A stretch of 41,221 nt of DNA from an uncultured Clostridia bacterium (GTDB taxonomy: Bacteria > Bacillota > Clostridia > TANB77 > CAG-508), in NCBI GenBank assembly GCA_947594845.1, contig CANQEI010000012.1, positions 1-41,221 on the forward strand, written 5' to 3'. The position numbers and the translations under genes were made by a program. The notes under the pieces were generated by a model. The model saw only the letters and a program-made list of their open reading frames with translations, searched no databases and had not been told where the DNA came from. This document shows, in pieces, positions 19,187 to 40,431 of the stretch (positions within the stretch are counted from its first letter, which is position 1; each line of letters opens with the position of its first letter).

Positions 19187-19222
19187 AAGCACTGTGCAGA
19201 GGAATCTGCATAGTGCTTTTTA
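19187..19222 (+). terminator. Rho-independent terminator of the purC-like gene
   Basis: AGCACT-GTGCAGA pairs with TCTGCA-TAGTGCT around GGAA, followed by TTTT. The T tract runs into the stop codon of the convergent kinase gene at 19220, so the hairpin may also stop transcripts from that side. Confidence 0.8.
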
Positions 19223-20254
19223 CAAACTTATTTCTTCATCTCTTTTTTTTCTATTAATTATTTTGTGAACTAGATTTTCTATAGTTTTCCTTCTCTGTGA
19301 AAACATTTCTCTACCAAATTCTACATATTCTTTAGGTAATCCTTCACATTCAGATAATATAGTTTCTACATCATTTTCAGATACATTGTCTAATATTTCT
19401 AACATAATTTTTAAAGTTTCATCTGGATAGTGTTCACTCAAATATGTTAATAACACATCATAAGGAACTTTTTCTGGGTTATTTGGGATTCCCATTCTTG
19501 ATGTAAGAACTTCTTTCGAAACTTCATCAATGTTATTTTTAGAAATTGCATTTCTTATTATTTCTTGATTTTCATACAATCCTAATACTCTTTCATTGTC
19601 ATATGCTGGATAAGGTCTTATACTATTTGTTATAATATCTCTTGCAAAACTCCAATTTTCATCATGTCTATCATTATTTCCAAATACACAATCATATATC
19701 GCCATTTGTATTATATACTGTTTTGCTGCTTTTATTTCTTGTTCTGAACAATTTGAACTTCTCATCATATGTTCAATAGAAGCTAGTATAATTTCTATAT
19801 TATTGTAGTCTCTCTCTCCTAGTGAATCATCTTGAGCTAATTCTTTATATTCTTCTGGTCTATCATTTTTAATTCTTTCAATAATAACATTTCCAGGTAT
19901 CAATACTTCAGTTTTTTTCAAATCACTATAACTAATGCAACCTTCTTTAAGCACAATATTTCCTGAAGTATATTTATTTTTTTCTGTATTAACTTTTACT
20001 AATTCCGAGTCACAAACATCCATGTTTATTCTATGAGCTAATTCGCTGCCAACCACTTCTCCATAATGATTCCCACAAAATAACTCTATAGAATGTCCAT
20101 ATTCTTTTCTTCTTGGCTTAAATAGTCCTCTTTGTGGTCTGTGGTATTTTGCTTCATAATTATCTCTATTATCAAACCAAAGTTTAAATTTTAGCATACC
20201 TTGTTTTTCATAGTATAATGGTGTATATGTATCAATATTTTTAAACCTATACAT
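19220..20254 (-). CDS. HipA-like serine/threonine kinase B
   Basis: HipA/CtkA-type protein kinase fold. 344 aa. Visible elements: nucleotide-binding lysine K46 in RGLFKPRR; NHYGEVVGSELAHRI (about 62-76), the conserved helix; catalytic loop FGNNDRHDENW with D195 and N200; and metal-binding D219 in PAYDNERVLG. In HipA the corresponding residues are the NxDRHxxN loop and the YD of the metal site. It lacks the N-subdomain of full HipA, which may be supplied by the small gene that it overlaps by 8 bp. It is clearly paralogous to kinase A two genes upstream. The target is unknown; HipA phosphorylates glutamyl-tRNA synthetase and HipT tryptophanyl-tRNA synthetase. It is the last gene of the uvrB unit. 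Confidence 0.75.
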   Translation of the reverse strand: MYRFKNIDTYTPLYYEKQGMLKFKLWFDNRDNYEAKYHRPQRGLFKPRRKEYGHSIELFCGNHYGEVVGSELAHRINMDVCDSELVKVNTEKNKYTSGNIVLKEGCISYSDLKKTEVLIPGNVIIERIKNDRPEEYKELAQDDSLGERDYNNIEIILASIEHMMRSSNCSEQEIKAAKQYIIQMAIYDCVFGNNDRHDENWSFARDIITNSIRPYPAYDNERVLGLYENQEIIRNAISKNNIDEVSKEVLTSRMGIPNNPEKVPYDVLLTYLSEHYPDETLKIMLEILDNVSENDVETILSECEGLPKEYVEFGREMFSQRRKTIENLVHKIINRKKRDEEISL

Positions 20255-20621
20255 CTTTTTCGTTCTCCTTTTCTAAAATAAAATTATCTGTTAATAATTT
20301 TCCTTTAGTTTTTTCTAAATATTTAAATTCATCAAATTCACTAATTCCTAGTTCTTCAAGCAATTCTCTTTTTTCTTCTTCATCATAAGTTTCAATTTTG
20401 GGTATTCTCAACTTAAATATAGAAAATAATTCATCACTCTCATAGATTTTGTCAAAATTTGAAAAAGGAATCGTTACCATTGAAAAACCTTGATTTTCTG
20501 CTTCAGTAATATGTTTTTTACTTAATTTAAAATAATATTTTTTGTCTTTTCTGCAAAGAGCCCCAATAATATATTTTTTATTATTCAAAGGACTTAACCA
20601 TTTTAAATATAATACTTCCAT
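20247..20621 (-). CDS. Small HipA-associated protein, candidate N-subdomain or antitoxin partner
   Basis: 124 aa without signal peptide or membrane helix. The N-terminal half looks like a small beta-rich domain (EVLYLKWLSPLNNKKYIIGAL, KKYYFKL, MVTIPFSNFDKIYES). The C-terminal half has the pattern LFSIFKLRIPKIE...R..LLEELGI...LEKTKGKLLTDNF, which I recall from stand-alone proteins beside HipA-like kinases. It sits between two paralogous kinases: 12 bp after kinase A, overlapping kinase B by 8 bp. By analogy with HipS of HipBST, where the N-subdomain of HipA is a separate antitoxin, it may restrain the kinases. That is inference from size and position. The ribosome binding site is GAGAGGA. Confidence 0.55.
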   Translation of the reverse strand: MEVLYLKWLSPLNNKKYIIGALCRKDKKYYFKLSKKHITEAENQGFSMVTIPFSNFDKIYESDELFSIFKLRIPKIETYDEEEKRELLEELGISEFDEFKYLEKTKGKLLTDNFILEKENEKDV

Positions 20622-20633
20622 TTCTGTTCCTCT

Positions 20634-21692
20634 CTATTTTTCTTCAACATCAAAACTTTGTTCTATGTAATAATTATTCAATACTCCCAAAATATTTGAT
20701 GTTCTTTCACTATATATTTTCTTAGCAAATTGTTTGTAACATTCATCTAGTTCACTACATTTTTTTAATATTTCATCCAAATCTTTTTCTTTAAATGTAA
20801 ATATCTTGTCTAATGCCTTTTTAGAATATTGAGGATATTTATTTAATAAATATTTTACCATATCTGTATAATGAATTTTTTCATTTTCTTTTCCAAATCC
20901 CATTCTTGAATTAAGAAGTGTATCTGAGTATGATTTTACGCCTTCATCGCTTTGTATAATTTGTTCAACCACATCTTTTCTTTCCATGAATCCTAGAATT
21001 CTTTCATTATCATACATTGGATACATTTCAACAGTATCAGCTCTTTCTTTTTTTGGGAAATTAATATTTCTAAACACTATTCCCCAGTTTTCATCACTTC
21101 TGTCCCAATTTCCAAATGTACAATCAAACATTACTACTTCTACTAATTCTTCTATTACTTTCTCAATTTCTGAATCTGAACAATTTCCTCTTTCTTTTAA
21201 ATAATATCTTAATGCTGATATTATTGTGTCAATATTATTGTTTTTAGAAGTTGTTGTATTTAAATTTAGTACATCTCTTGAATATGCCTCTAAAATTGTT
21301 AAACCATTAACTACTTCATCTTGGTTTCCTTTATGAATATAGCTTATACAACCATCTATTATGCTTTCTTTTCCTGAATATTTATTTCTGTATTTTCTTC
21401 TTGCTAATTCTACTTTGCAAGCTGGTATTCCAATTTTTTCTGCGATTTTGTATCCTACAAATTCTCCATAGTGATTAGCATATATATAACTCTTTTTACT
21501 TTTTCTCTTTTTTAAAGCTTCATGCATTGGTTTGAATATTCCCGCTTTAGGGAATGATTCAGGATATCCTTCTTCAATTCTTCTTTCAACTGCTATTTTT
21601 CCTAATACATCTCCTACATTTACATCACGTATTTTAACATAGTTTGGTGGCTCAGCAGCTATAATTTTATATTTTTCTGTATCATCATTCAT
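20634..21692 (-). CDS. HipA-like serine/threonine kinase A
   Basis: 352 aa, paralogue of kinase B. K54 is in AGIFKPMHE; NHYGEFVGYKIAEKIGIPACKVEL (73 onward) aligns with the same helix in kinase B; catalytic loop FGNWDRSDENW with D197 and N202 (the usual His after DR is Ser); D228 in PMYDNERILG; then LLNSRMGFG, shared with kinase B (LTSRMGIP). An N-terminal extension of about 20 residues precedes the shared part. The catalytic and metal residues are present, so it is probably active despite the His-to-Ser change. It starts 5 bp after the uvrB stop with its ribosome binding site inside the end of uvrB, so it is translationally linked to a DNA repair gene. The target is unknown. Confidence 0.75.
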   Translation of the reverse strand: MNDDTEKYKIIAAEPPNYVKIRDVNVGDVLGKIAVERRIEEGYPESFPKAGIFKPMHEALKKRKSKKSYIYANHYGEFVGYKIAEKIGIPACKVELARRKYRNKYSGKESIIDGCISYIHKGNQDEVVNGLTILEAYSRDVLNLNTTTSKNNNIDTIISALRYYLKERGNCSDSEIEKVIEELVEVVMFDCTFGNWDRSDENWGIVFRNINFPKKERADTVEMYPMYDNERILGFMERKDVVEQIIQSDEGVKSYSDTLLNSRMGFGKENEKIHYTDMVKYLLNKYPQYSKKALDKIFTFKEKDLDEILKKCSELDECYKQFAKKIYSERTSNILGVLNNYYIEQSFDVEEK

Positions 21693-30693: not shown

Positions 30694-30906
30694 TTATTTT
30701 ATTTCAACTACATTAAATCCAGCTTCTTCTATAGCATCTGTTATTTTTTCATTTTCAACGTTGTCTGTTGCTTCTATTTTTGCCATTTTATTTTCTAAAT
30801 CTACCTCTACCTTTGAAATTCCAGGTATACTATTTAAAGCTTTTTCTACACTCATCTTACAATGTTCACAGTGCATTCCTTCTATTTTTATTATTTTTTC
30901 ATTCAT
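30694..30906 (-). other. copZ: Nested CopZ-like frame with its own ribosome binding site inside copA
   Basis: Within the copA frame AAGGAGG is followed 8 bp later by ATG at 30906, reading MNEKIIKIEGMHCEHCKMSV onward for 70 residues to the copA stop. This is the length and motif (GMxCxxC) of the copper chaperone CopZ, which is usually a separate gene just downstream of copA. The cell could therefore make both full CopA and a free CopZ from one frame. The internal start is inferred from the ribosome binding site and needs proteomic proof. Confidence 0.5.
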
Positions 30907-33204
30907 TTTATTTTCCTCCTTAAAATTTATTTTAAACTTTCTTAGCCTTAGTGCATTTGTTACAACACAAACAGAACTTAGGCTCATTGCAGCAGCACCA
31001 ATCATCGGATTTAGTTTTAATCCAAATGGTATATAGAATATTCCACAAGCTATTGGAATCCCTATTGCGTTGTAGAAAAATGCCCAAAACAAGTTCATTT
31101 TTATATTTCTTATTACTGCTTTACTTAATGATATAGCTTTTGCTACATCAAGTAAATTATTTTTTATTAGAACTAAGTCAGCTGACTCTATCGCAATATC
31201 TGTTCCTGATCCTATTGCTAACCCTACATCTGATTTAACTAGTGCTGGGCTATCATTTATTCCATCCCCAACAAAAGCAACTTTTTTGCCTTGTGCTTGC
31301 AAATTGGCAATTTCTTTTTCTTTGTCTTGTGGTAAAACTTCTGCTATAACTTTATTTATATTCAATTTGGTAGCAATTGAATTTGCTACTATACTATTGT
31401 CTCCTGTTAGCATAGCAACTTCTAAATGCATTTTTTGTAATTCTTTTATTGCTGTATAGCTAGTTTCTTTTATTGTGTCTGCAACAGCTATTATTCCGAT
31501 TACTCTCATTTCATTTGCAAAGTATAAAACTGTTTTTCCCTCTTCTAGCAATTTTTTACTTTCCGTTTTCATTTTGTCAATGTAAACTTTTTTCTCAATC
31601 ATTAAAGTAATATTTCCTGCTAAATATTTATTTCCTGAAATAGTTCCTTCTAGTCCTTTACCTGGTATGATTTCAAATTTGTCTACTTTTTGCAATTTTA
31701 TATTTTTTTCTTTTACCTTTTTCAAAATAGCTTCTGCTAATGGATGCTCCGAATTTTTTTCTAAGCTTCCTGCTATTTTTAGAAATTCTTCTTCATCTAA
31801 TTCAGTAATTATATCTGTTACTTTTGGTTTTCCTTCTGTTATTGTTCCAGTTTTGTCTAATACGACTGTGTCAACAGAATGAAGGTTCTCCAGGCTTTCT
31901 GCAGATTTTATTAATATTCCGTTTTCTGCTCCCTTCCCTGTTCCAACCATTATTGCAACAGGTGTTGCTAAGCCTAATGCACATGGGCATGAGATGACTA
32001 ATACAGATATACCTATGCTTAGTGCAAATTCAAATGGTTGCCCATTTATTAACCAAATTATTGTTGCAATAAAAGCTATGGTTATTACAATTGGTACAAA
32101 AATTCCACTAACTTTATCAGCTAACCTGGAAATTGGTGCCTTTGAATTGCTTGCTTCTTCAACTAATTTTATTATTTGTGAGATTGTAGTATCTTCTCCA
32201 ACTTTAGTAGCTCTAATTTTTAATATTCCATTTTTATTTATTGTTCCTGATATAACAGAGTCTCCTATTTTCTTTTCAACAGGAATGCTCTCTCCTGTAA
32301 TACTTGACTGATCTACACTACTATTTCCTTCAATAATAATTCCGTCTACTCCAATACTTTCTCCTGGTTTTATAATTATTATTTCTCCATTTTGAATTTC
32401 TTCTATTTTTAATAATACTTCTTTTTCATTTCTTATTGCTGTCACTTTTTTAGGTACAAGGTTTATTAGTTTATTTATTGCATCACTAGTTTTTCCTTTT
32501 GACTTTGTTTCTAAGTATTTTCCAACAGTTATTAGTGTTAATATTGTTCCAGCAGACTCAAAATACAAATCCATTGAAAATTTATTTATTTGATCAATAT
32601 TATTTACATTCATTCCCTGTATAATCATATAAATTGCATAAAGTCCATAAATTATTGCAGCAGAACTTCCAATTGCAATAAGTGAATCCATATTAGGTGA
32701 TATTTTAAATAATCTTTTAAATCCTACTATAAAATAATTTCTATTTAGGTATACTATTGGAATTACTAATAATAGCTGTGTCACTGCAAATCTTAAAGCA
32801 TTTTCTGGCCCATGGAATAAATCTTTAATTATTTGTGGAACTGGTAATCCAAACCATTCAAAAAGCATATGATGCATTGCAATATACATAAGAGGTATTA
32901 GTAAGCATATTGAGGCTATTAATCTTTTTTTCATTGATTTTATTTCTTTATCATTTGAAATATTTTTTTCCTCTCTGTTTTTACTATTTCCATTATATAC
33001 ATTTGCATCATATCCGGCGTCTATTACAGCATTAATTATTTTTTCATTATTGGCTTTTTTTTCGTCATATTCTACAACCATATTATTTAAAATTAGATTT
33101 ACGTTTACTGATTTAACACCATCTACTTTTTTTACAGCATTTTCTACATGAGCTGAACAGCTACTGCATGTCATTCCGTGTACATCAAATTTAACAGTTT
33201 TCAT
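30694..33204 (-). CDS. copA: Copper-exporting P1B-type ATPase with C-terminal CopZ-like domain
   Basis: Membrane Cu(I) export ATPase, 836 aa. An N-terminal heavy-metal-associated domain has GMTCSSC (C13, C16). Eight-helix core with the transmembrane metal site ISCPCALGLATP, the phosphorylation motif VLDKTGTITEGKP, SEHPLAEAIL, MLTGDN and VGDGINDSPAL. It is unusual in carrying a second HMA domain after the last membrane helices: the core ends with LRLRKFKINFKEENK and then continues in frame into MNEKIIKIEGMHCEHC, a complete 70-residue CopZ-like domain. The DNA at this junction contains an internal ribosome binding site and start (see 30694-30906). A promoter with a CsoR-type operator lies upstream. 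Confidence 0.95.
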   Translation of the reverse strand: MKTVKFDVHGMTCSSCSAHVENAVKKVDGVKSVNVNLILNNMVVEYDEKKANNEKIINAVIDAGYDANVYNGNSKNREEKNISNDKEIKSMKKRLIASICLLIPLMYIAMHHMLFEWFGLPVPQIIKDLFHGPENALRFAVTQLLLVIPIVYLNRNYFIVGFKRLFKISPNMDSLIAIGSSAAIIYGLYAIYMIIQGMNVNNIDQINKFSMDLYFESAGTILTLITVGKYLETKSKGKTSDAINKLINLVPKKVTAIRNEKEVLLKIEEIQNGEIIIIKPGESIGVDGIIIEGNSSVDQSSITGESIPVEKKIGDSVISGTINKNGILKIRATKVGEDTTISQIIKLVEEASNSKAPISRLADKVSGIFVPIVITIAFIATIIWLINGQPFEFALSIGISVLVISCPCALGLATPVAIMVGTGKGAENGILIKSAESLENLHSVDTVVLDKTGTITEGKPKVTDIITELDEEEFLKIAGSLEKNSEHPLAEAILKKVKEKNIKLQKVDKFEIIPGKGLEGTISGNKYLAGNITLMIEKKVYIDKMKTESKKLLEEGKTVLYFANEMRVIGIIAVADTIKETSYTAIKELQKMHLEVAMLTGDNSIVANSIATKLNINKVIAEVLPQDKEKEIANLQAQGKKVAFVGDGINDSPALVKSDVGLAIGSGTDIAIESADLVLIKNNLLDVAKAISLSKAVIRNIKMNLFWAFFYNAIGIPIACGIFYIPFGLKLNPMIGAAAMSLSSVCVVTNALRLRKFKINFKEENKMNEKIIKIEGMHCEHCKMSVEKALNSIPGISKVEVDLENKMAKIEATDNVENEKITDAIEEAGFNVVEIK

Positions 33205-33333: not shown

Positions 33334-34386
33334 TTATATTATTTTTCCTCCACCTAAAACAATGTCATCTATATAAAATACTGCAGATTGTCCTGGTGTT
33401 ATTGCTCTTTGTGGCTCATCAAATACTACTTTTATATTGTTTCCATTTTGAATAATGCTAGCTTTTGCTGATTTTGCTGAATATCTTGTTTTTACTTCTA
33501 CCTCAACCTTTTCTTTGATTTCATCAAATAGTAATAAATTTACATCAGTTACTAATACTTCTTTTTTATATAATTCTTTTTCTTCCCCGACAATTACTTC
33601 ATTTTTTTCTTTATTGAATCCAAGTACAAATAGTGGCACAGGATTTGATATTCCAAGTCCTTTTCTTTGCCCTATTGTATAATTGTATAATCCTGTATGT
33701 ACACCTAACACTTTTCCTTCTCGATTTACGATATTTCCCTGCTTAGGTTTTATATTAGAATTGTTTTCTAAAAATTTCTTGTAATTTCCGTCAGGTATGA
33801 AACATATATCTTCACTATCAGGTTTATTTGCTACTTTTAAATTATTTTCCCTTGCAATTTTTCTTATTTGTTCTTTATCTTCAAAATCTGACAAAGGAAA
33901 AATAACATGTTCTATCAATTCTTTTGGTATATTCCATAAAACATAACTTTGATCTTTTTTACCAGCTTTTGATTTTTTTAGTACCCATCTTTTATATTTT
34001 TCACTATATTCCGTTTTGGCATAGTGGCCTGTTGCAATACATTCACAACCTAATTGTTTTGCCTTTTCATACATTAATCCAAATTTCATATATTTATTGC
34101 ATTCAATACATGGATTAGGTGTTTTACAATTTGAATAGCAATCAATAAAATCATTTATTACATATTTTTTAAATTCTTCTTTATAATTAAAAATAAAATG
34201 AGGTATTCCTATTGAATTACATATATTTTTTGCATCAATATAAGTATTTGTGTTACAACAACTACTTCCTGCAAATAATTCTAATGTTGTTCCCATTACT
34301 TCATAGCCATTGTTTTTTAATAGTAGTGCTGATACTGAGCTGTCAACACCTCCACTCATTCCCAATAAAACTTTTTTCTTTTCCAT
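33334..34386 (-). CDS. mnmA: tRNA-specific 2-thiouridylase MnmA
   Basis: Installs the 2-thio group on U34 of tRNA Lys, Glu and Gln, using sulfur relayed from a cysteine desulfurase. 350 aa. The PP-loop ATP site is VLLGMSGGVDSSVSALLL at 6-23; catalytic cysteines are in NPCIECN and SEDICFIP; the tRNA-binding and barrel domains end with RAITPGQSAVFY. It is the last gene of the suf operon, 13 bp after sufU, so sulfur supply (SufS) and tRNA thiolation are co-expressed. Ribosome binding site AAAGGA. Complete. Confidence 0.96.
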   Translation of the reverse strand: MEKKKVLLGMSGGVDSSVSALLLKNNGYEVMGTTLELFAGSSCCNTNTYIDAKNICNSIGIPHFIFNYKEEFKKYVINDFIDCYSNCKTPNPCIECNKYMKFGLMYEKAKQLGCECIATGHYAKTEYSEKYKRWVLKKSKAGKKDQSYVLWNIPKELIEHVIFPLSDFEDKEQIRKIARENNLKVANKPDSEDICFIPDGNYKKFLENNSNIKPKQGNIVNREGKVLGVHTGLYNYTIGQRKGLGISNPVPLFVLGFNKEKNEVIVGEEKELYKKEVLVTDVNLLLFDEIKEKVEVEVKTRYSAKSAKASIIQNGNNIKVVFDEPQRAITPGQSAVFYIDDIVLGGGKII

Positions 34387-34399
34387 TTTAAAAATTCCT

Positions 34400-34864
34400 T
34401 TAATGACAACAATTTATTTTTCCTGTTCCATCACTATTTTTTTCTATCATATCTTCCAAAGTATGCCATGCTAATAGTGCACATTTTACTCTTGCAGGCA
34501 TATTTGAAACATTTTTAAAAGCAATAGCATCTTCTAATTTTTTTAGTTCATTTTCATCTGTTATTTCTCTTTTTATCATTTTTATAAATGTATCAATAAT
34601 TTCCTTTGCTTCTTCAATTGTTTTTCCTCTTAAAGTATCAATCATTATTGATGTTGATGCTTGAGAAATAGCACATCCGTGTCCTGAAAATGCCATATCT
34701 TCTATAATATTATTATTTACTTTTAATTCTAATGTTATTTCATCTCCACAATTAGGATTATGTCCTAACTCAGAAAAGTCAGGTTTATCTAATTTCTTTT
34801 TGTTATATGAATTCATACTGTGTTCCATTATTAATTCATTATACATTTCTGTTAAATCATCCAT
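34400..34864 (-). CDS. sufU: SufU, SUF-system sulfur transfer / scaffold protein
   Basis: IscU-like zinc protein of Firmicutes that takes persulfide sulfur from SufS and passes it on for Fe-S assembly. 154 aa. Ligands are seen in HNPNCGDEI (with D two residues on), SGHGCAISQAS and PARVKCALLAW. The family insertion between the second and third motif is present. The tail is short, ending KINCCH with two adjacent cysteines, an unusual end that may bind metal. It starts 7 bp after the sufS stop. Confidence 0.94.
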   Translation of the reverse strand: MDDLTEMYNELIMEHSMNSYNKKKLDKPDFSELGHNPNCGDEITLELKVNNNIIEDMAFSGHGCAISQASTSIMIDTLRGKTIEEAKEIIDTFIKMIKREITDENELKKLEDAIAFKNVSNMPARVKCALLAWHTLEDMIEKNSDGTGKINCCH

Positions 34865-34871
34865 ATTTTTC

Positions 34872-36086
34872 CTACCCTATATATTTTTTAAACATATTAT
34901 ATGCTTTATTTAAGCCTTTTACTAAATTATCTACATCTTCTTTTGTATTGTAAATATAAAAACTTGCTCTACAAGTTGAATCTATCCCTAATGATCTCAT
35001 AAGTGGTTGAGCACAATGATTTCCTGAACGAACGCAAACTCCTTCTGAATCTAAAATGCTTGCAACATCATGTGGATGAACTCCATTTATATTAAATGAA
35101 ATTACTCCAGAATGATTTTTCTCATTTTTGGTTAAGTATAAAGTTAAATAATCTAGCTTTGATAATTCTTGTCTCGCATATGTTAACACTTCGTTTTCAA
35201 TTTCATGTATTTTATCATATCCCAAGTTTTGCAAATAATCTATGGCAGCTCCTAGTCCTATTACTCCTTCTACATTTTGAGTTCCCGCCTCAAATTTATT
35301 TGGCAATGGTGCAAATGTTGTGTCCTGTTCATATACATATTCTATCATATCTCCACCCATTAAGAATGGTGTCATATTATTTAATAGTTGTTTTTTTCCA
35401 TATAAAACTCCTATTCCTAATGGAGCCAACATTTTATGTCCTGAAAATACTAAGAAATCTGCATCTAATTTTTGAACATCTATTTTCATATGTGGTATGC
35501 TTTGTGATGCATCAACAATTACTACAGCTCCATGCTTATGTGCACACTTGATTATTTTTTCTATATTATTAATAGTTCCTAAAACATTTGAAACATGTGT
35601 AATTCCAACGATTTTAGTTTTATCCGTTATTTTATTTTCTATTTCTTCATCTGGTATTTCATAGTTTTCATTTATATACATGTATTTTAATTTACTCTCA
35701 GTTTTCTTGGCAACTTTTTGCCAAGAAACTAAATTAGAATGGTGTTCCATTATAGATATTACTATTTCATCATCTTTTTTTAAGTTATCTAACCCATATG
35801 AATATGCTAATAAATTTAAGCTTTCTGTGGCATTTTTTGAAAATATTATCTCTTCTCTGTTTTGTGCATTTATGAATTCGGCAATTTTTGTTCTAGTATT
35901 TTCATATGCTTCAGTTGCTTCGATACTTAAAGAATAAGCTCCTCTATGAGGATTTGCATTGTACTTTTTATAGTATTCTTCAATCGCATTTATTACCTTT
36001 AATGGTTTTTGTGTAGTAGCTCCACTGTCTAAATATGATATTTTTCTATTTTCTAAAATTGGAAAGTCTTTTTTAATTTCAAGCAT
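34872..36086 (-). CDS. sufS: SufS, cysteine desulfurase
   Basis: PLP enzyme that removes sulfur from cysteine as an enzyme persulfide. 404 aa, type II (SufS/CsdA) subgroup. The PLP lysine is in FSGHKMLAPLGIG, and EHHSNLVSW and DASQSIPH are conserved cofactor contacts. The catalytic cysteine is in RSGNHCAQPLMRSLG near residue 360. It opens with YLDSGATTQKP, the usual N-terminal motif. Position 4 of the suf genes (after the regulator: C, B, D, S). Complete. Confidence 0.97.
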   Translation of the reverse strand: MLEIKKDFPILENRKISYLDSGATTQKPLKVINAIEEYYKKYNANPHRGAYSLSIEATEAYENTRTKIAEFINAQNREEIIFSKNATESLNLLAYSYGLDNLKKDDEIVISIMEHHSNLVSWQKVAKKTESKLKYMYINENYEIPDEEIENKITDKTKIVGITHVSNVLGTINNIEKIIKCAHKHGAVVIVDASQSIPHMKIDVQKLDADFLVFSGHKMLAPLGIGVLYGKKQLLNNMTPFLMGGDMIEYVYEQDTTFAPLPNKFEAGTQNVEGVIGLGAAIDYLQNLGYDKIHEIENEVLTYARQELSKLDYLTLYLTKNEKNHSGVISFNINGVHPHDVASILDSEGVCVRSGNHCAQPLMRSLGIDSTCRASFYIYNTKEDVDNLVKGLNKAYNMFKKYIG

Positions 36087-36100
36087 TTTTTTCCCTTTCT

Positions 36101-37153
36101 TTAATCTAATCTATTATCTATTTCATATATAATTTCATTTTTTAGTTTTGCATCCTTTATGCTTTCTAATATTTTATTAAATCTTGCCTTAACAATTAAT
36201 TTCATTGCTTCTTTATAATCAAATCCTCTAGACATTATATAGAATAATTGTTTATTATCTACTTTTCCTGCTGCTGAACTGTGATTTCCCTCAACATCTT
36301 CTTCATCACATAAAAGCATTGGTAAAGCTAAAGATTTTGCAGTATCTGATAATAGCATACAAAATTCATTTTCATTTCCTTTAGATTTTTTGCTTCCTCT
36401 TTTAAAATCAATTGTTCCTTTAAACTTTTTCTTAGCTGAATCTTTTAGTGCTCCCTGAACTTCTATATTTATATTAGTTTTTTCGCCATGTAATTCTCCA
36501 ATATAATTTAAGTCAAATAATTGATTTTCTTTACCAAGATAAATACAATTTATTTTATTTTCAGAGCAATTACCTTTTAAATTTGAATAATAATTTGTAA
36601 TACTGTTCTTTCCGCCAAAATCAACTATGCAATAATTTATCTTTGCGTTTTCTTCTAATTCATTTTCTATACTTATAAAATTATTCGCATTTTCATTTAG
36701 TAAATTTACTACTGAAATATCTATACAAGAATCTTTTTTAGCAAAAACCCTAATTATTCCATTATGATACAAATTGTCTATATTATTTGATTTATATTTT
36801 ATAATTACATCTGCTTTTTTATTTTCTTCTGCTATAATTTCAATATTCTCCACTAAATTCGAATTATTTTCATCTAATTCAAATTCTAATTCTATTGGTT
36901 CTGCATAATTTTTATTAATAACTATTTTTACTTTTTTATTTGAATTAACTTTTACTTGATTTTCTAATTTATCGCCTAATCCATAAATTAGATTAGAATT
37001 AGAAACATTTTCAGAACTTAATACACTATTATTATTTATTTTGAAATTATTAAATGGCATAATTTCTTCTTGTATTTCTAATTCATCTAATTTGACATTA
37101 TTTATATTAAAATTACGAGCTGTCCTAACTGGAGTTTCATTTACAGTAATCAT
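36101..37153 (-). CDS. sufD: SufD, Fe-S assembly scaffold subunit
   Basis: Beta-helix partner of SufB in the SufBCD complex; needed for iron entry. 350 aa, slightly short for the family, mostly through the N-terminal region. The conserved C-terminal core is present: GTIDFKRGSKKSKGNENEF, PMLLCDEEDVEGNHSSAAGK (with the His found in SufD proteins) and YIMSRGFDYKEAMKLIVKA. The central part is divergent and rich in Asn/Lys, as expected in this genome. It lies 14 bp before sufS and 35 bp after sufB. Confidence 0.92.
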   Translation of the reverse strand: MITVNETPVRTARNFNINNVKLDELEIQEEIMPFNNFKINNNSVLSSENVSNSNLIYGLGDKLENQVKVNSNKKVKIVINKNYAEPIELEFELDENNSNLVENIEIIAEENKKADVIIKYKSNNIDNLYHNGIIRVFAKKDSCIDISVVNLLNENANNFISIENELEENAKINYCIVDFGGKNSITNYYSNLKGNCSENKINCIYLGKENQLFDLNYIGELHGEKTNINIEVQGALKDSAKKKFKGTIDFKRGSKKSKGNENEFCMLLSDTAKSLALPMLLCDEEDVEGNHSSAAGKVDNKQLFYIMSRGFDYKEAMKLIVKARFNKILESIKDAKLKNEIIYEIDNRLD

Positions 37154-37188: not shown

Positions 37189-38589
37189 TTACCCAATCGC
37201 TCCTTCAAGTTCTAAATTAATAAGATTATTCATTTCAACAGCATACTCAACAGGTAACTCTTTAGAAATTGGATAAGCAAATCCTCTTACAATCATAGCT
37301 TTGGCATCTTCTTCTGATATTCCTCTACTCATTAAATAAAAAATTGTTTTATCACTTATCTTACCAATTTTAGCTTCATGAGAAAATTCTATTTCATCAG
37401 TTCTAATATCAGATGTTGGAATTGTATCTGATTTTGATATATCATCAAGCATTAATGATTCGCATGAAACTGAACATTTTGAATTTTTAGCATTTTCATT
37501 AACTCGTACAAGTGATCTATATGTGCAGGTTCCTCCATTTTTTGAAATAGATTTTGCATTAACAAGGCTTGAAGTATTTGGAGCATTGTGTACAACTTTA
37601 AATCCATTATCAAGATTCTGACCTTTACCTGCAAAAGAGATACCAGTAAATTCTGTTTTTGAATTTTCTCCGTTTAATATACTCATTGGATAAAGCATTG
37701 ATATTTTTGACCCAAAAGATCCAGATACCCAATCCATTTTGGCATTTTTCCCTACTATTGCTTTTTTAGTATTTAGATTTAACATGTTTTTTGACCAATT
37801 TTCAATTGTTGAGTATCTTAAATATGCATTATCTTTAACGTATAATTCAACACATCCAGCATGTAAATTAACTTTATTATATTTTGGAGCACTACATCCT
37901 TCAATAAAATGTAAGCTTGCTCCCTCGTCAACTATGATTAAAGTATGTTCAAATTGACCTGATTCAGGTGAATTAAGTCTAAAGTATGATTGTAAAGGGA
38001 TATCTACCTTTACACCTTTAGGTACATATACAAAAGATCCTCCAGACCATACAGCACCATGTAAAGCTACAAATTTATGATCATTTACTGGAACACATTT
38101 CATAAAATGTTCTTTAACTAAATCCGGATATTCTCTTACTGCTGTTTCCATATCTGTGTATATAACACCCTGTTTTATTAATTCTTCTTTCATACTATGA
38201 TAAACTACTTCTGAGTCATATTGCGCACCAACTCCTGCTAATGATGTTTTTTCTGCTTCTGGTATTCCTAATTTATCAAAAGTATCTTTTATATCTTCAG
38301 GAACATCTTCCCATGAATTACTTAATCCCGTTTTGGGTTTGACATATGTTGCAATATCATCCATGTTCAATTCAGATAAATCTGGTCCCCATGTTGGAAG
38401 TTCTAATTTATTATACACATCTAATGCTTTTAGTCTAAATTCTTTCATCCATTCAGGATCATTTTTTTGTTTTGAAATTTCTTTTATAATTTCAGGTGTT
38501 AATCCTTTTTTAATTTTGAAATCATATTCATCTTTATTTTTTATGTCATAAATATTTCTATTTATTTCTTCTATATTAGATTTTGACAT
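37189..38589 (-). CDS. sufB: SufB, Fe-S assembly scaffold subunit
   Basis: Scaffold on which the nascent Fe-S cluster forms in SufBCD. 466 aa. Conserved stretches: YDSEVVYHSMKEEL, VPVNDHKFVALHGAVWSGGSFVYVPKGV, FIEGCSAPKYNKVNLHAGCVELYV (with the conserved Cys), WVSGSFGSKISMLYPM, and near the C-terminus YLMSRGISEEDAKAMIVRGF. Complete and typical. Ribosome binding site AGAAAGGA. Second structural gene of the operon. Confidence 0.97.
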   Translation of the reverse strand: MSKSNIEEINRNIYDIKNKDEYDFKIKKGLTPEIIKEISKQKNDPEWMKEFRLKALDVYNKLELPTWGPDLSELNMDDIATYVKPKTGLSNSWEDVPEDIKDTFDKLGIPEAEKTSLAGVGAQYDSEVVYHSMKEELIKQGVIYTDMETAVREYPDLVKEHFMKCVPVNDHKFVALHGAVWSGGSFVYVPKGVKVDIPLQSYFRLNSPESGQFEHTLIIVDEGASLHFIEGCSAPKYNKVNLHAGCVELYVKDNAYLRYSTIENWSKNMLNLNTKKAIVGKNAKMDWVSGSFGSKISMLYPMSILNGENSKTEFTGISFAGKGQNLDNGFKVVHNAPNTSSLVNAKSISKNGGTCTYRSLVRVNENAKNSKCSVSCESLMLDDISKSDTIPTSDIRTDEIEFSHEAKIGKISDKTIFYLMSRGISEEDAKAMIVRGFAYPISKELPVEYAVEMNNLINLELEGAIG

Positions 38590-38613: not shown

Positions 38614-39351
38614 TTATTTATATTGACTGTATCCATTTTCTTCTATTTCTTTTGCTAATTCTTGAGTTCCTGTTTTTACTATTCTTCCGTCTACTAATAC
38701 ATGTACATAATCTGCTTTTAAGCTACTTAAGATTTTAGTGTTATGAGTAATTATTAATACTCCATTTTCGTCATTTTTAAACATTTCTATTCCTTTAGAA
38801 ACTGTTTTTATTGCATCTACATCCAAACCTGAATCAGTTTCATCTAGTATGGCAAGTTTTGGATTTAACACTAATAATTGCAAAATTTCATTTTTCTTTT
38901 TTTCTCCTCCAGAAAAACCTACATTTAGACTTCTTTCCATATTTTTTGAATTCATATTTAATTCTTCCATATATTTTTTTAGTTCTTCTCTAAATTCAAA
39001 TATTTTTACTGGTTTTCCCGTTGATTTATTTTTTGCATATTTTAGAAAATTTGTTACAGATACGCCTGGAATTTCTTCTGGCAACTGAAATGACATAAAT
39101 ATTCCTTTTCGAGCTATTTCATCTGTTTTTAAATTAGTTATATCTTCATCACCAAATATAATTTTTCCTTTTTCTTTCTTATATTCTGGATTATTTAAAA
39201 TTGCATTTGCAGTTGTTGATTTTCCAGAACCGTTTGGTCCCATTATTACATGAATTTCGCCTTTATTTATTTTTAAATTAATTCCTTTTAAAATTTCTTT
39301 TTCCTCAGCGTTTACGTATAAGTCTTTGATTTCTAATAAATTTTCACTCAT
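38614..39351 (-). CDS. sufC: SufC, ATPase of the SufBCD complex
   Basis: Soluble ABC-type ATPase that drives conformational change in SufBD. 245 aa. Walker A is MGPNGSGKSTTANAIL near residue 36, the Q-loop is MSFQLPEEIPGV, the ABC signature is NVGFSGGEKKKNEILQLL, Walker B is LAILDETDSGLDVDAIK and the H-loop is LIITHNTKIL. It follows the DtxR-fold regulator by 18 bp, so the regulator controls its own transcript and that of the whole cluster. Confidence 0.97.
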   Translation of the reverse strand: MSENLLEIKDLYVNAEEKEILKGINLKINKGEIHVIMGPNGSGKSTTANAILNNPEYKKEKGKIIFGDEDITNLKTDEIARKGIFMSFQLPEEIPGVSVTNFLKYAKNKSTGKPVKIFEFREELKKYMEELNMNSKNMERSLNVGFSGGEKKKNEILQLLVLNPKLAILDETDSGLDVDAIKTVSKGIEMFKNDENGVLIITHNTKILSSLKADYVHVLVDGRIVKTGTQELAKEIEENGYSQYK

Positions 39352-39369: not shown

Positions 39370-39813
39370 TTAATTTATTTTTCTTCTAACACAAGATCTG
39401 CATTTTTCTTGATTTATATCATAGTTACAGTCTAAACTATTTAAATCTAGAACTTTATGAACATATTTTGCCAATTCATTTATAGTATTGTCAGATAAAT
39501 TAGATTTTATTTTCTCGGCTTCAATTTCTGCTTCTTCTGAATTTAAATTTAATACATCTTTAAAAAATAAATATACAATGTCATATGCTTCTAAAATTTT
39601 TTTTGCTAAATCTTCACCTTGTTCTGTTAAATCTATAGTTCCATATGTTTCATATATTACCAAATTATTATCTTTTAAATTGTGTAATGCTTTATTTACG
39701 CTTGGTTTACTACAATTCATTTTTTTAGCAACATCTGTAACTCTTATATTTCCATATTGTTTTTTCAGTACATACATATTTTTTAAATATTCTTCTAAAG
39801 CCTTTGATACCAT
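39370..39813 (-). CDS. DtxR-family regulator of the suf operon with degenerate metal sites and a C-terminal Cys triad
   Basis: Transcription factor, 147 aa. A winged helix (about 4-62, IRVTDVAKKMNCSKPSVNKA) precedes a dimerisation domain like MntR. Aligned by eye to B. subtilis MntR, the metal ligands are mostly gone: D8 is Glu8, E11 is Lys11, H77 is Tyr77, E102 is Lys103 and H103 is Ser104; only E99 (Glu100) remains. The tail gains C129, C138 and C141 (C-x8-C-x2-C), a pattern fit for an Fe-S cluster or zinc. The frame continues 23 codons upstream, but AAAGGAG lies 6 bp before the ATG at 39813. First gene of the suf operon; two similar sites flank its promoter. I infer that it senses Fe-S status rather than Mn or Fe. 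Confidence 0.82.
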   Translation of the reverse strand: MVSKALEEYLKNMYVLKKQYGNIRVTDVAKKMNCSKPSVNKALHNLKDNNLVIYETYGTIDLTEQGEDLAKKILEAYDIVYLFFKDVLNLNSEEAEIEAEKIKSNLSDNTINELAKYVHKVLDLNSLDCNYDINQEKCRSCVRRKIN

Positions 39814-39828
39814 AACATTCTCCTTTTT

Positions 39829-39844
39829 GTTAATCACGGTTAAC
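39829..39844. promoter_or_regulatory. Operator-like site O2 of the suf operon
   Basis: GTTAATCACGGTTAAC: dyad GTTAA-N6-TTAAC placed at the transcription start, just after the -10 box. 13 of 16 bases match site O1. Confidence 0.65.
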
Positions 39845-39873
39845 ATTATATTACTATACATATTGTTTGTCAA
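39845..39873 (-). promoter_or_regulatory. Consensus sigma-A promoter of the suf operon
   Basis: Minus strand TTGACA (39873-39868), a 17-bp spacer, TATAAT (39850-39845): perfect at all 12 positions. So strong a promoter needs repression, in line with the two flanking sites. The leader is about 30 nt. Confidence 0.85.
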
Positions 39874-39880
39874 GGTTAAC
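39865..39880. promoter_or_regulatory. Operator-like site O1 of the suf operon
   Basis: GTTTGTCAAGGTTAAC, overlapping the -35 box; same orientation as O2 and 36 bp from it, with GGTTAAC exact in both. Confidence 0.6.
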
Positions 39881-39982
39881 ATTTATTTTCTATGTATAAA
39901 TTCGATAGTTTCGTCAATAATATGTTCAGGTTATTAAGTGTAGATTTTATACTAAATTGATACCAGAAAGGAATGATATTTT

Positions 39983-40185: not shown

Positions 40186-40431
40186 ATGAACGATAAACAA
40201 TTAATGGAAAACGAATTACTAGTTATAAAAGGAGTTTGTGATTTATATCTTCATGGAACTCTTGAATCAAGTACAGCAGAAGTTCATCAAGCTTTTAAAG
40301 ATGCACTAAATATTTCTCTAGATATTCAAAATAAAATTTATAATCTAATGACTGAAAAAGGTTGGTATAAAACTGATGTTGTTGAACAAGCAAAAATTAA
40401 TAATGTAAAGCAAAAATTTTCTCAAAATTAA
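40186..40431 (+). CDS. CotF-family spore coat protein
   Basis: 81 aa. The motif YLHGTLESSTAEVHQAFKDA, then LDIQNKIYNLMTEKGWYKTD, matches the C-terminal half of the CotF family (PF07875, ending in M.xKGWY). Small, soluble and helical; expected in the spore coat and expressed in the mother cell. Second gene of the two-gene unit and followed by a terminator. I could not define a sigma-E or sigma-K promoter in 39884-39982 by eye. Confidence 0.8.
   Translation: MNDKQLMENELLVIKGVCDLYLHGTLESSTAEVHQAFKDALNISLDIQNKIYNLMTEKGWYKTDVVEQAKINNVKQKFSQN

Follow-up and report, generated by a model that had tools for sequence, protein, structure and literature searches.

Which protein controls the assembly of iron-sulfur (Fe-S) clusters in an organism whose suf operon begins with a gene for neither an IscR-type nor a SufR-type regulator, and with one for a relative of the metal sensor MntR instead? 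This is the question raised by the window, that is, the whole stretch of 41,221 nucleotides analysed here. On its minus strand follow one another sufC (38614..39351; Pfam ABC_tran and gene order), sufB (37189..38589) and sufD (36101..37153), both recognised with Pfam, then what we take to be sufS, for a cysteine desulfurase (34872..36086), and sufU (34400..34864), both from sequence and order, and finally what its sequence presumably marks as mnmA, for a tRNA 2-thiouridylase (33334..34386), an order on which our reading of the genes and a preliminary description of this DNA agree. A gene for a heavy-metal P-type ATPase resembling copA (30694..33204, minus strand) lies 129 nt past mnmA and may be part of the same operon; copper damages Fe-S clusters, which would be a possible reason for its position. 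The gene at the head (39370..39813, minus strand) encodes a winged-helix protein of 147 amino acids with the DtxR/MntR fold and a C-terminal C-x8-C-x2-C motif, called the regulator below. Its upper end had been placed at about 39880, close to the merely mechanical start of the longest open reading frame at 39882; since the -35 and -10 elements lie inside that longer frame and a ribosome-binding site AGGAG is found at 39820..39824 (minus strand), the true start is the ATG at 39813.

The membership of this protein in the DtxR/MntR family, proposed from the first, is supported by both Pfam domains of the family, PF01325 Fe_dep_repress (1.4e-11) and PF02742 Fe_dep_repr_C (3.3e-11), each above its cut-off, which correspond to the N-terminal winged helix-turn-helix and the helical dimerisation domain of the family architecture. 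MntR is likewise the top sequence match in the PDB (6.5e-12), and MntR structures are the first Foldseek match (3.0e-7, TM 0.76 by query length) of an AlphaFold2 monomer model with a mean pLDDT of 83.6, in which the tail reaches only low confidence (64, 54 and 55 in the last three blocks). Among the NCBI equivalogs for MntR or DtxR, however, none is reached, with the top model scoring 65.5 bits where 153 are needed. The Rrf2 domain PF02082 scores 17.2 bits, under its cut-off of 30, and the regulator carries DtxR domains in place of the DeoR-type domain and the C-x12-C-x13-C-x14-C motif of SufR.

The metal site is where the protein departs from its family. The divalent-metal ligands of MntR, which we take to be D8, E11, H77, E99, E102 and H103, correspond in the alignment to E8, K11, Y77, E100, K103 and S104 of the regulator, whose numbering is shifted by one from the fourth residue in question onwards, so that the conserved set of metal ligands expected of a DtxR/MntR protein is lost. 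All the replacements listed in the preliminary description can be read in this alignment, and the three cysteines that it named are also present, in a tail encoded at 39391..39429 (minus strand): C129 (39427-39429), C138 (39400-39402) and C141 (39391-39393). In an alignment of 40 rows these cysteines are invariant, as are K11, K103 and E98, and two acidic residues between the cysteines, D132 and E136, are at least 90% conserved. This alignment derives from a set of 41 rows, from which L018 and L043 (a fragment and stops) and identical proteins had been left out, by omission of the untailed L024, which L265 repeats. Among 118 distinct tailed homologues, taken from a larger genome set than the 105 proteins discussed below, K11 is found in 115 (two have Ser and one a gap) and K103 in 113 (five have Arg); as these rows were picked by the tail motif, counting their cysteines would be circular, but the lysines are independent of the pick. 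Some homologues show a C-x9-C-x2-C variant of the tail. The recurrence of the lysines and the tail in more than 100 distinct homologues goes beyond what chance would give, with the proviso that all homologue counts given here treat related sequences as independent. A histidine persists at position 77 in 17 and at position 104 in 18 of 105 tailed proteins, as if the metal site of the tailed regulators had decayed stepwise. Relatives that lack the tail (24 from outside the order, and L024) have E11 in 24, H77 in 25, E103 in 24 and H104 in 25 of the 25 rows.

A second line of evidence comes from the genes that follow the regulator. For each of 105 distinct tailed proteins, the 2 kb that follow on the same strand were searched by full-length matching. 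The nearest of the searched genes is sufC in 68 cases, an SMS-type sufC in 19, mnmA in 11 and iscS in one, that is, a target in 99 of 105. The distance is at most 400 nt in 97 of these 99 and at most 150 nt in 89, and the two distant targets (L102 and L122) are mnmA, which, where it is the only target (11 of the 99), serves sulfur transfer and not cluster assembly itself. The SMS, a minimal Fe-S system (PMC12192291), is represented by sufC genes 32-36% identical to that of the window, whose partner, where read, is a short SufB-like protein (in L135, Pfam SUFBD_core, 1.2e-20). Six tailed regulators have no target gene downstream; two of them stand at contig ends, and the other four have at least 1.4 kb downstream (L020, L114, L118 and L121), L118 having an operator before iscS. 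A chance pairing of the regulator with suf was considered and is ruled out by this conservation of the neighbour. The DtxR-family proteins adjoining sufC do share the tail and the ligand loss, a check that the preliminary description had proposed, and the linkage, together with the upstream sites described below, is that of an Fe-S biogenesis regulator; we consider it very probable that the protein controls Fe-S biogenesis. An ordinary Mn- or Fe-sensing MntR/DtxR protein that adjoins suf by chance would be compatible with the fold and the best sequence matches, which are those of MntR, and with the predicted control of a suf-like operon by an ordinary iron-activated DtxR in Corynebacterium diphtheriae (PMC524172). 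Nevertheless, both bridging ligands are lysines in nearly all members, H77 is lost in most, and a target gene follows almost everywhere, so that this reading is barely credible; it was rejected on the ligand loss.

The promoter of the window points in the same direction as these neighbours. Its hexamers, TTGACA (39868..39873, minus strand) and TATAAT (39845..39850, minus strand), are separated by 17 nt and agree with the consensus at 12 of 12 positions (39873-39845), just as had been noticed at the outset. Two predicted operators, likewise described before as 13/16-identical and with a core identity of 13/16 when compared by eye, accompany it on the same strand: a proximal one, TGTTAACCGTGATTAACA, at 39828..39845, whose first base is the last of the -10 hexamer, and a distal one, TGTTAACCTTGACAAACA, at 39864..39881, which overlaps the -35. 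A scan of other upstream regions for GGTTAAC pairs had been suggested, and conserved palindromes of the GTTAAC type do recur in the promoters of the homologues, with TGTTAR-N6-YTAACA as the predicted operator consensus. The best match to this palindrome has all 12 outer positions in 85 of 105 regulator promoters, 11 in 8, and 7-9 in 12; the 12 promoters without a good site count against the mechanism set out below. As a background, 345 upstream regions of other open reading frames (real or not) gave 12 of 12 in one and 11 in six, scores of 8-9 being the commonest. Where a -35/-10 pair can be recognised (93 of the 105 promoters), the site starts on the last -10 base in 87, and a second copy overlapping the -35 is found in 37 of the 105. 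Such a fixed register over the -10 and the start, with one more site over the -35, is easier to reconcile with repression than with activation.

The operator is also confined to few places in the genome. Across 56 related genomes the strict pattern was found 17 times, in 16 genomes: 15 sites precede the regulator, one precedes an SMS sufC (G002) and one iscS (G030, where the regulator is cut by the contig edge). In the 14 genomes of the window's genus a relaxed pattern occurs 13 times versus 35 for the reversed pattern, so that the palindrome does not owe its presence just to AT-rich DNA, and operator-like sequences elsewhere even give the impression of being avoided; the relaxed scan gave three further sites, none of them common to several genomes. 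Moreover, where the regulator is located away from suf, sufC has a site of its own, with 11-12 of 12 positions and 61-92 nt upstream, in all six assessable genomes with a verified tailed regulator among the matches listed (G106, G138, G176, G243, G263 and G283). As these come from four genera, they are not six independent events, and G223 and G273, whose contigs end near or inside sufC, stand outside the test. In genomes without the regulator, sufC stays at the background level throughout, with scores of 8-10 at all 14 loci (L140-L153). At the separate sufC, the site has a -35/-10-like element before it in L157, L158, L228 and L229, and no such pattern was found in L159 and L235. In G138 and G263 there is a good site at sufC and none at the regulator's own gene, and in two genomes with a relative of another type (G109 and G255, see below) a 12/12 site precedes sufC in both. 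The remaining sites in trans are those before the SMS sufC in G002 and before iscS in G030 and G100, the last about 4 kb from the regulator. Genes for a CcdA-like protein and a thioredoxin lie directly 5′ of the G100 regulator (L118, 6130-7277).

How widely this regulator is used was estimated from 287 genomes of the order. A match to the family at E <= 1e-3 is present in 185 of them, and 177 pass the stricter threshold of 1e-14; these 177 matches are profile-based, with the tail read in part of them. On re-examination of 28 genomes, mostly with weak or unread matches, 14 proved tailed, 11 untailed (G027, G065, G072, G109, G172, G182, G222, G255, G267, G271 and G276) and three truncated or split (G139, G170 and G173). 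In G173 and G170 (L267 and L268), which belong to one genus, the regulator beside sufC breaks into two frames at nearly the same point. Beyond the order, 391 class genomes and 398 phylum genomes were searched with profiles. No intact tailed relative stood among the best matches listed; those extending past position 135 were broken by stops or, in G888, belonged to a longer protein. The 26 loci that carry a title all come from metagenome assemblies labelled 'Clostridia' or 'Clostridium sp.'.

The regulator and the Rrf2 proteins, to which IscR belongs, rarely occur together. Rrf2 is found at E <= 1e-20 in 51 of the 287 genomes, the regulator family in 177 and both in only five (G043, G065, G069, G097 and G217), with p 2.5e-17 if genomes are treated as independent; when the 11 untailed genomes are left out, the figures are 166 for the regulator, four for both and p 2.3e-16 on the same assumption. 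Neither family is found in 64 of the 287 genomes, or 74 when the untailed members are left out. Among the five is the case in which the tail is simply missing (G065), a kind of homologue that had been named beforehand as evidence against the proposal; the same genome also holds an IscR-type protein. Within the window's genus, nine of the 14 genomes have the regulator, six have Rrf2 (E <= 1e-20) and three have both (G002, G007 and G008), the regulator preceding mnmA and Rrf2 preceding iscS in these three. It is in first position of the suf operon that the two families exclude each other most clearly: Rrf2 directly precedes sufC in G004 and G010 (sequence read, with three cysteines visible) and G001 (from position only); for two of these three genes IscR is the best equivalog, below its cut-off. 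The regulator thus seems, as far as sequences can tell, to occupy the usual place of IscR at the Fe-S genes of an order of gut Clostridia.

Where could such a protein come from? Its nearest relatives outside the order are untailed clostridial DtxR proteins of about 125 amino acids, which resemble the regulator in having a palindrome of the same kind upstream (11-12 of 12 positions in 10 of the 23 scored, and 12 in L204, L210 and L222) and differ in almost always keeping E11, H77, E103 and H104 and in having no cysteine tail. In 12 of 24 such loci, the best-scoring ones of the class and phylum searches, feoB lies within about 1.5 kb, and the 10 of these 12 neighbours that were also scanned with Pfam all contain FeoB_N; DtxR is known as a regulator of feo genes (PMC8516115). 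Inside the order, G182 and G276 have a canonical DtxR-type protein near feoB. In a tree built without the tail and ligand columns the tailed group forms one side of a branch (99/86), and in a larger tree it stands apart from a second group (100/99), these supports being rough; L243 and rows shorter than 115 amino acids were omitted from the trees. It is plausible that an iron-responsive DtxR regulator kept its type of DNA target, lost the metal switch and gained a cysteine tail.

The second group comprises eight relatives within the order that lack the tail (L262 from G222, L263 from G072, L024, L260, L261, L264, L266 and L269) and have Y or N at position 11 and a motif (A/S)-H-(C/F)-I-S-C-H, here abbreviated HCxxCH, right after the old metal site. 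Two of the eight (L262 and L263) stand directly before iscS with an operator upstream, six have no Fe-S gene beside them, and several adjoin genes for TSUP-like exporters, as judged by eye. The two before iscS are again tail-less homologues next to Fe-S genes, of the sort expected to speak against the proposal, but they carry this other set of cysteines and histidines near the old metal site, and the group could possibly represent a second Cys/His sensor built in the DtxR fold. Joining the tailed group, the HCxxCH group and three rows that are truncated or have no tail requires two changes on the tree instead of one.

Very probably, this order represses its Fe-S biogenesis genes through the regulator, a protein built on a DtxR fold. 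In the mechanism that we propose, a dimer would bind TGTTAR-N6-YTAACA at the -10 and the start, with the second copy over the -35 in the window, and would block RNA polymerase, which would keep its own gene and sufCBDSU-mnmA, perhaps with copA, switched off. The DtxR metal switch would be dead, both bridging carboxylates having become lysines, and the C-terminal cysteine triad would be the new switch, holding an Fe-S cluster, probably a [4Fe-4S] whose fourth ligand would be a carboxylate or solvent. With clusters in ample supply the holo form would repress, and with clusters scarce or damaged the regulator would lose its own and the genes would be expressed, as is the case with SufR and IscR. 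Taken as a whole, this autoregulated holo-repressor with a dead metal switch and a cluster on the cysteine triad seems fairly probable to us. The logic could also be the reverse, the apo form binding the operator or the protein activating its targets under cluster shortage: the two lysines might lock the DNA-binding form without metal, and structures of MntR E11K exist with and without metal. The fixed register over the -10 and the start fits repression and not activation, although it does not distinguish apo from holo, and this reversal appears highly improbable. Both SufR (PMC8593673) and RisR (PMC9973013) are reported to repress as the holo form.

That the triad holds an Fe-S cluster is likely from its composition, since three cysteines with the acids D132 and E136 between them fit a cluster with one non-cysteine ligand, as in NsrR, whose sensory [4Fe-4S] is bound by three cysteines and Asp8 of the other subunit (PMC5411485). 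The cysteines could instead bind a single metal ion (Fe2+, Zn2+ or Cu+), and the same Fe-S genes would then be governed by the sensing of free metal, or the metal would be structural. Three cysteines with a CxxC are typical of zinc and copper sites too; the copA-like gene after mnmA in the window has counterparts in eight of 43 mnmA-holding loci (five genomes; many other loci end earlier), and feoB adjoins 12 of the 24 untailed relatives from other orders. Yet the strict operators in the 56 genomes precede only the regulator, SMS sufC and iscS, and the slot is held by IscR-type proteins in sister species, which makes the single-metal site unlikely. The triad might also be a thiol switch for persulfide, sulfide or oxidants, with the genes tracking the sulfur or redox state. 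Sulfur transfer is what mnmA has in common with iscS and sufS, and such a switch would suit the thioredoxin and CcdA-like genes 5′ of the G100 regulator and the exporter genes beside several HCxxCH relatives. On the other hand, the targets include SMS sufC loci near which no desulfurase was seen, and sister species carry an IscR-type protein at the same position; the thiol switch is, in our opinion, decidedly unlikely.

The cluster-binding repressor thus proposed resembles SufR of cyanobacteria and some Actinobacteria in being dedicated to suf and autoregulated, with a palindromic operator and C-terminal cysteines, which in SufR hold a [4Fe-4S] cluster, and differs from it in family (DtxR fold versus DeoR), in cysteine spacing (C-x8-C-x2-C versus C-x12-C-x13-C-x14-C) and in operator (TGTTAR-N6-YTAACA versus CAAC-N6-GTTG) (PMC8593673). 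With the IscR/Rrf2 proteins, among them RisR and NsrR, it shares the small winged-helix form, the three cysteines and the position at isc/suf genes, but these belong to another protein family and have another spacing and position of the cysteines. MntR, DtxR and IdeR have the same fold and both Pfam domains, whereas their targets are Mn and Fe transport genes and the regulator has Fe-S biogenesis genes, lost ligands and a cysteine tail. The preliminary idea of a DtxR-fold analogue of SufR has fared well in its sequence-level part (tail, ligand loss and palindromes), its Fe-S-sensing part being likely as graded above, and the sites in trans and the linkage to SUF, SMS and iscS extend it. The preliminary description knew of no account of such a regulator, and full-text literature searches, with preprints and most subscription papers outside their scope, brought up none of any Fe-S regulator of the DtxR type carrying this kind of tail. 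According to a review, the regulation of suf is unknown in most Gram-positives without SufR, and its main text contains neither 'DtxR' nor 'MntR' (PMC8593673). For one order of gut Clostridia there is now a concrete candidate regulator, complete with operator, targets and testable cysteines. Confirmation of the cluster would make it a metal sensor that became a sensor of clusters and kept its type of DNA target. A broader scenario would make it another independent kind of Fe-S-sensing repressor beside Rrf2/IscR and DeoR/SufR, with a single origin, probably from a feoAB-linked DtxR, that gained the lysines and the cysteine tail and kept the operator type, replaced IscR across the order, serves SUF, SMS and iscS, and has a related lineage with a second Cys/His site; we hold the arguments for and against this full scenario to be evenly balanced.

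Two minor observations concern the rest of the window. A gene for a Coat_F spore-coat protein (40186-40431, plus strand; Pfam 2e-16) lies near the regulator on the opposite strand, and the region 19220-21692 contains two related open reading frames of about 350 amino acids, HipA-like by eye, with a short open reading frame between them.
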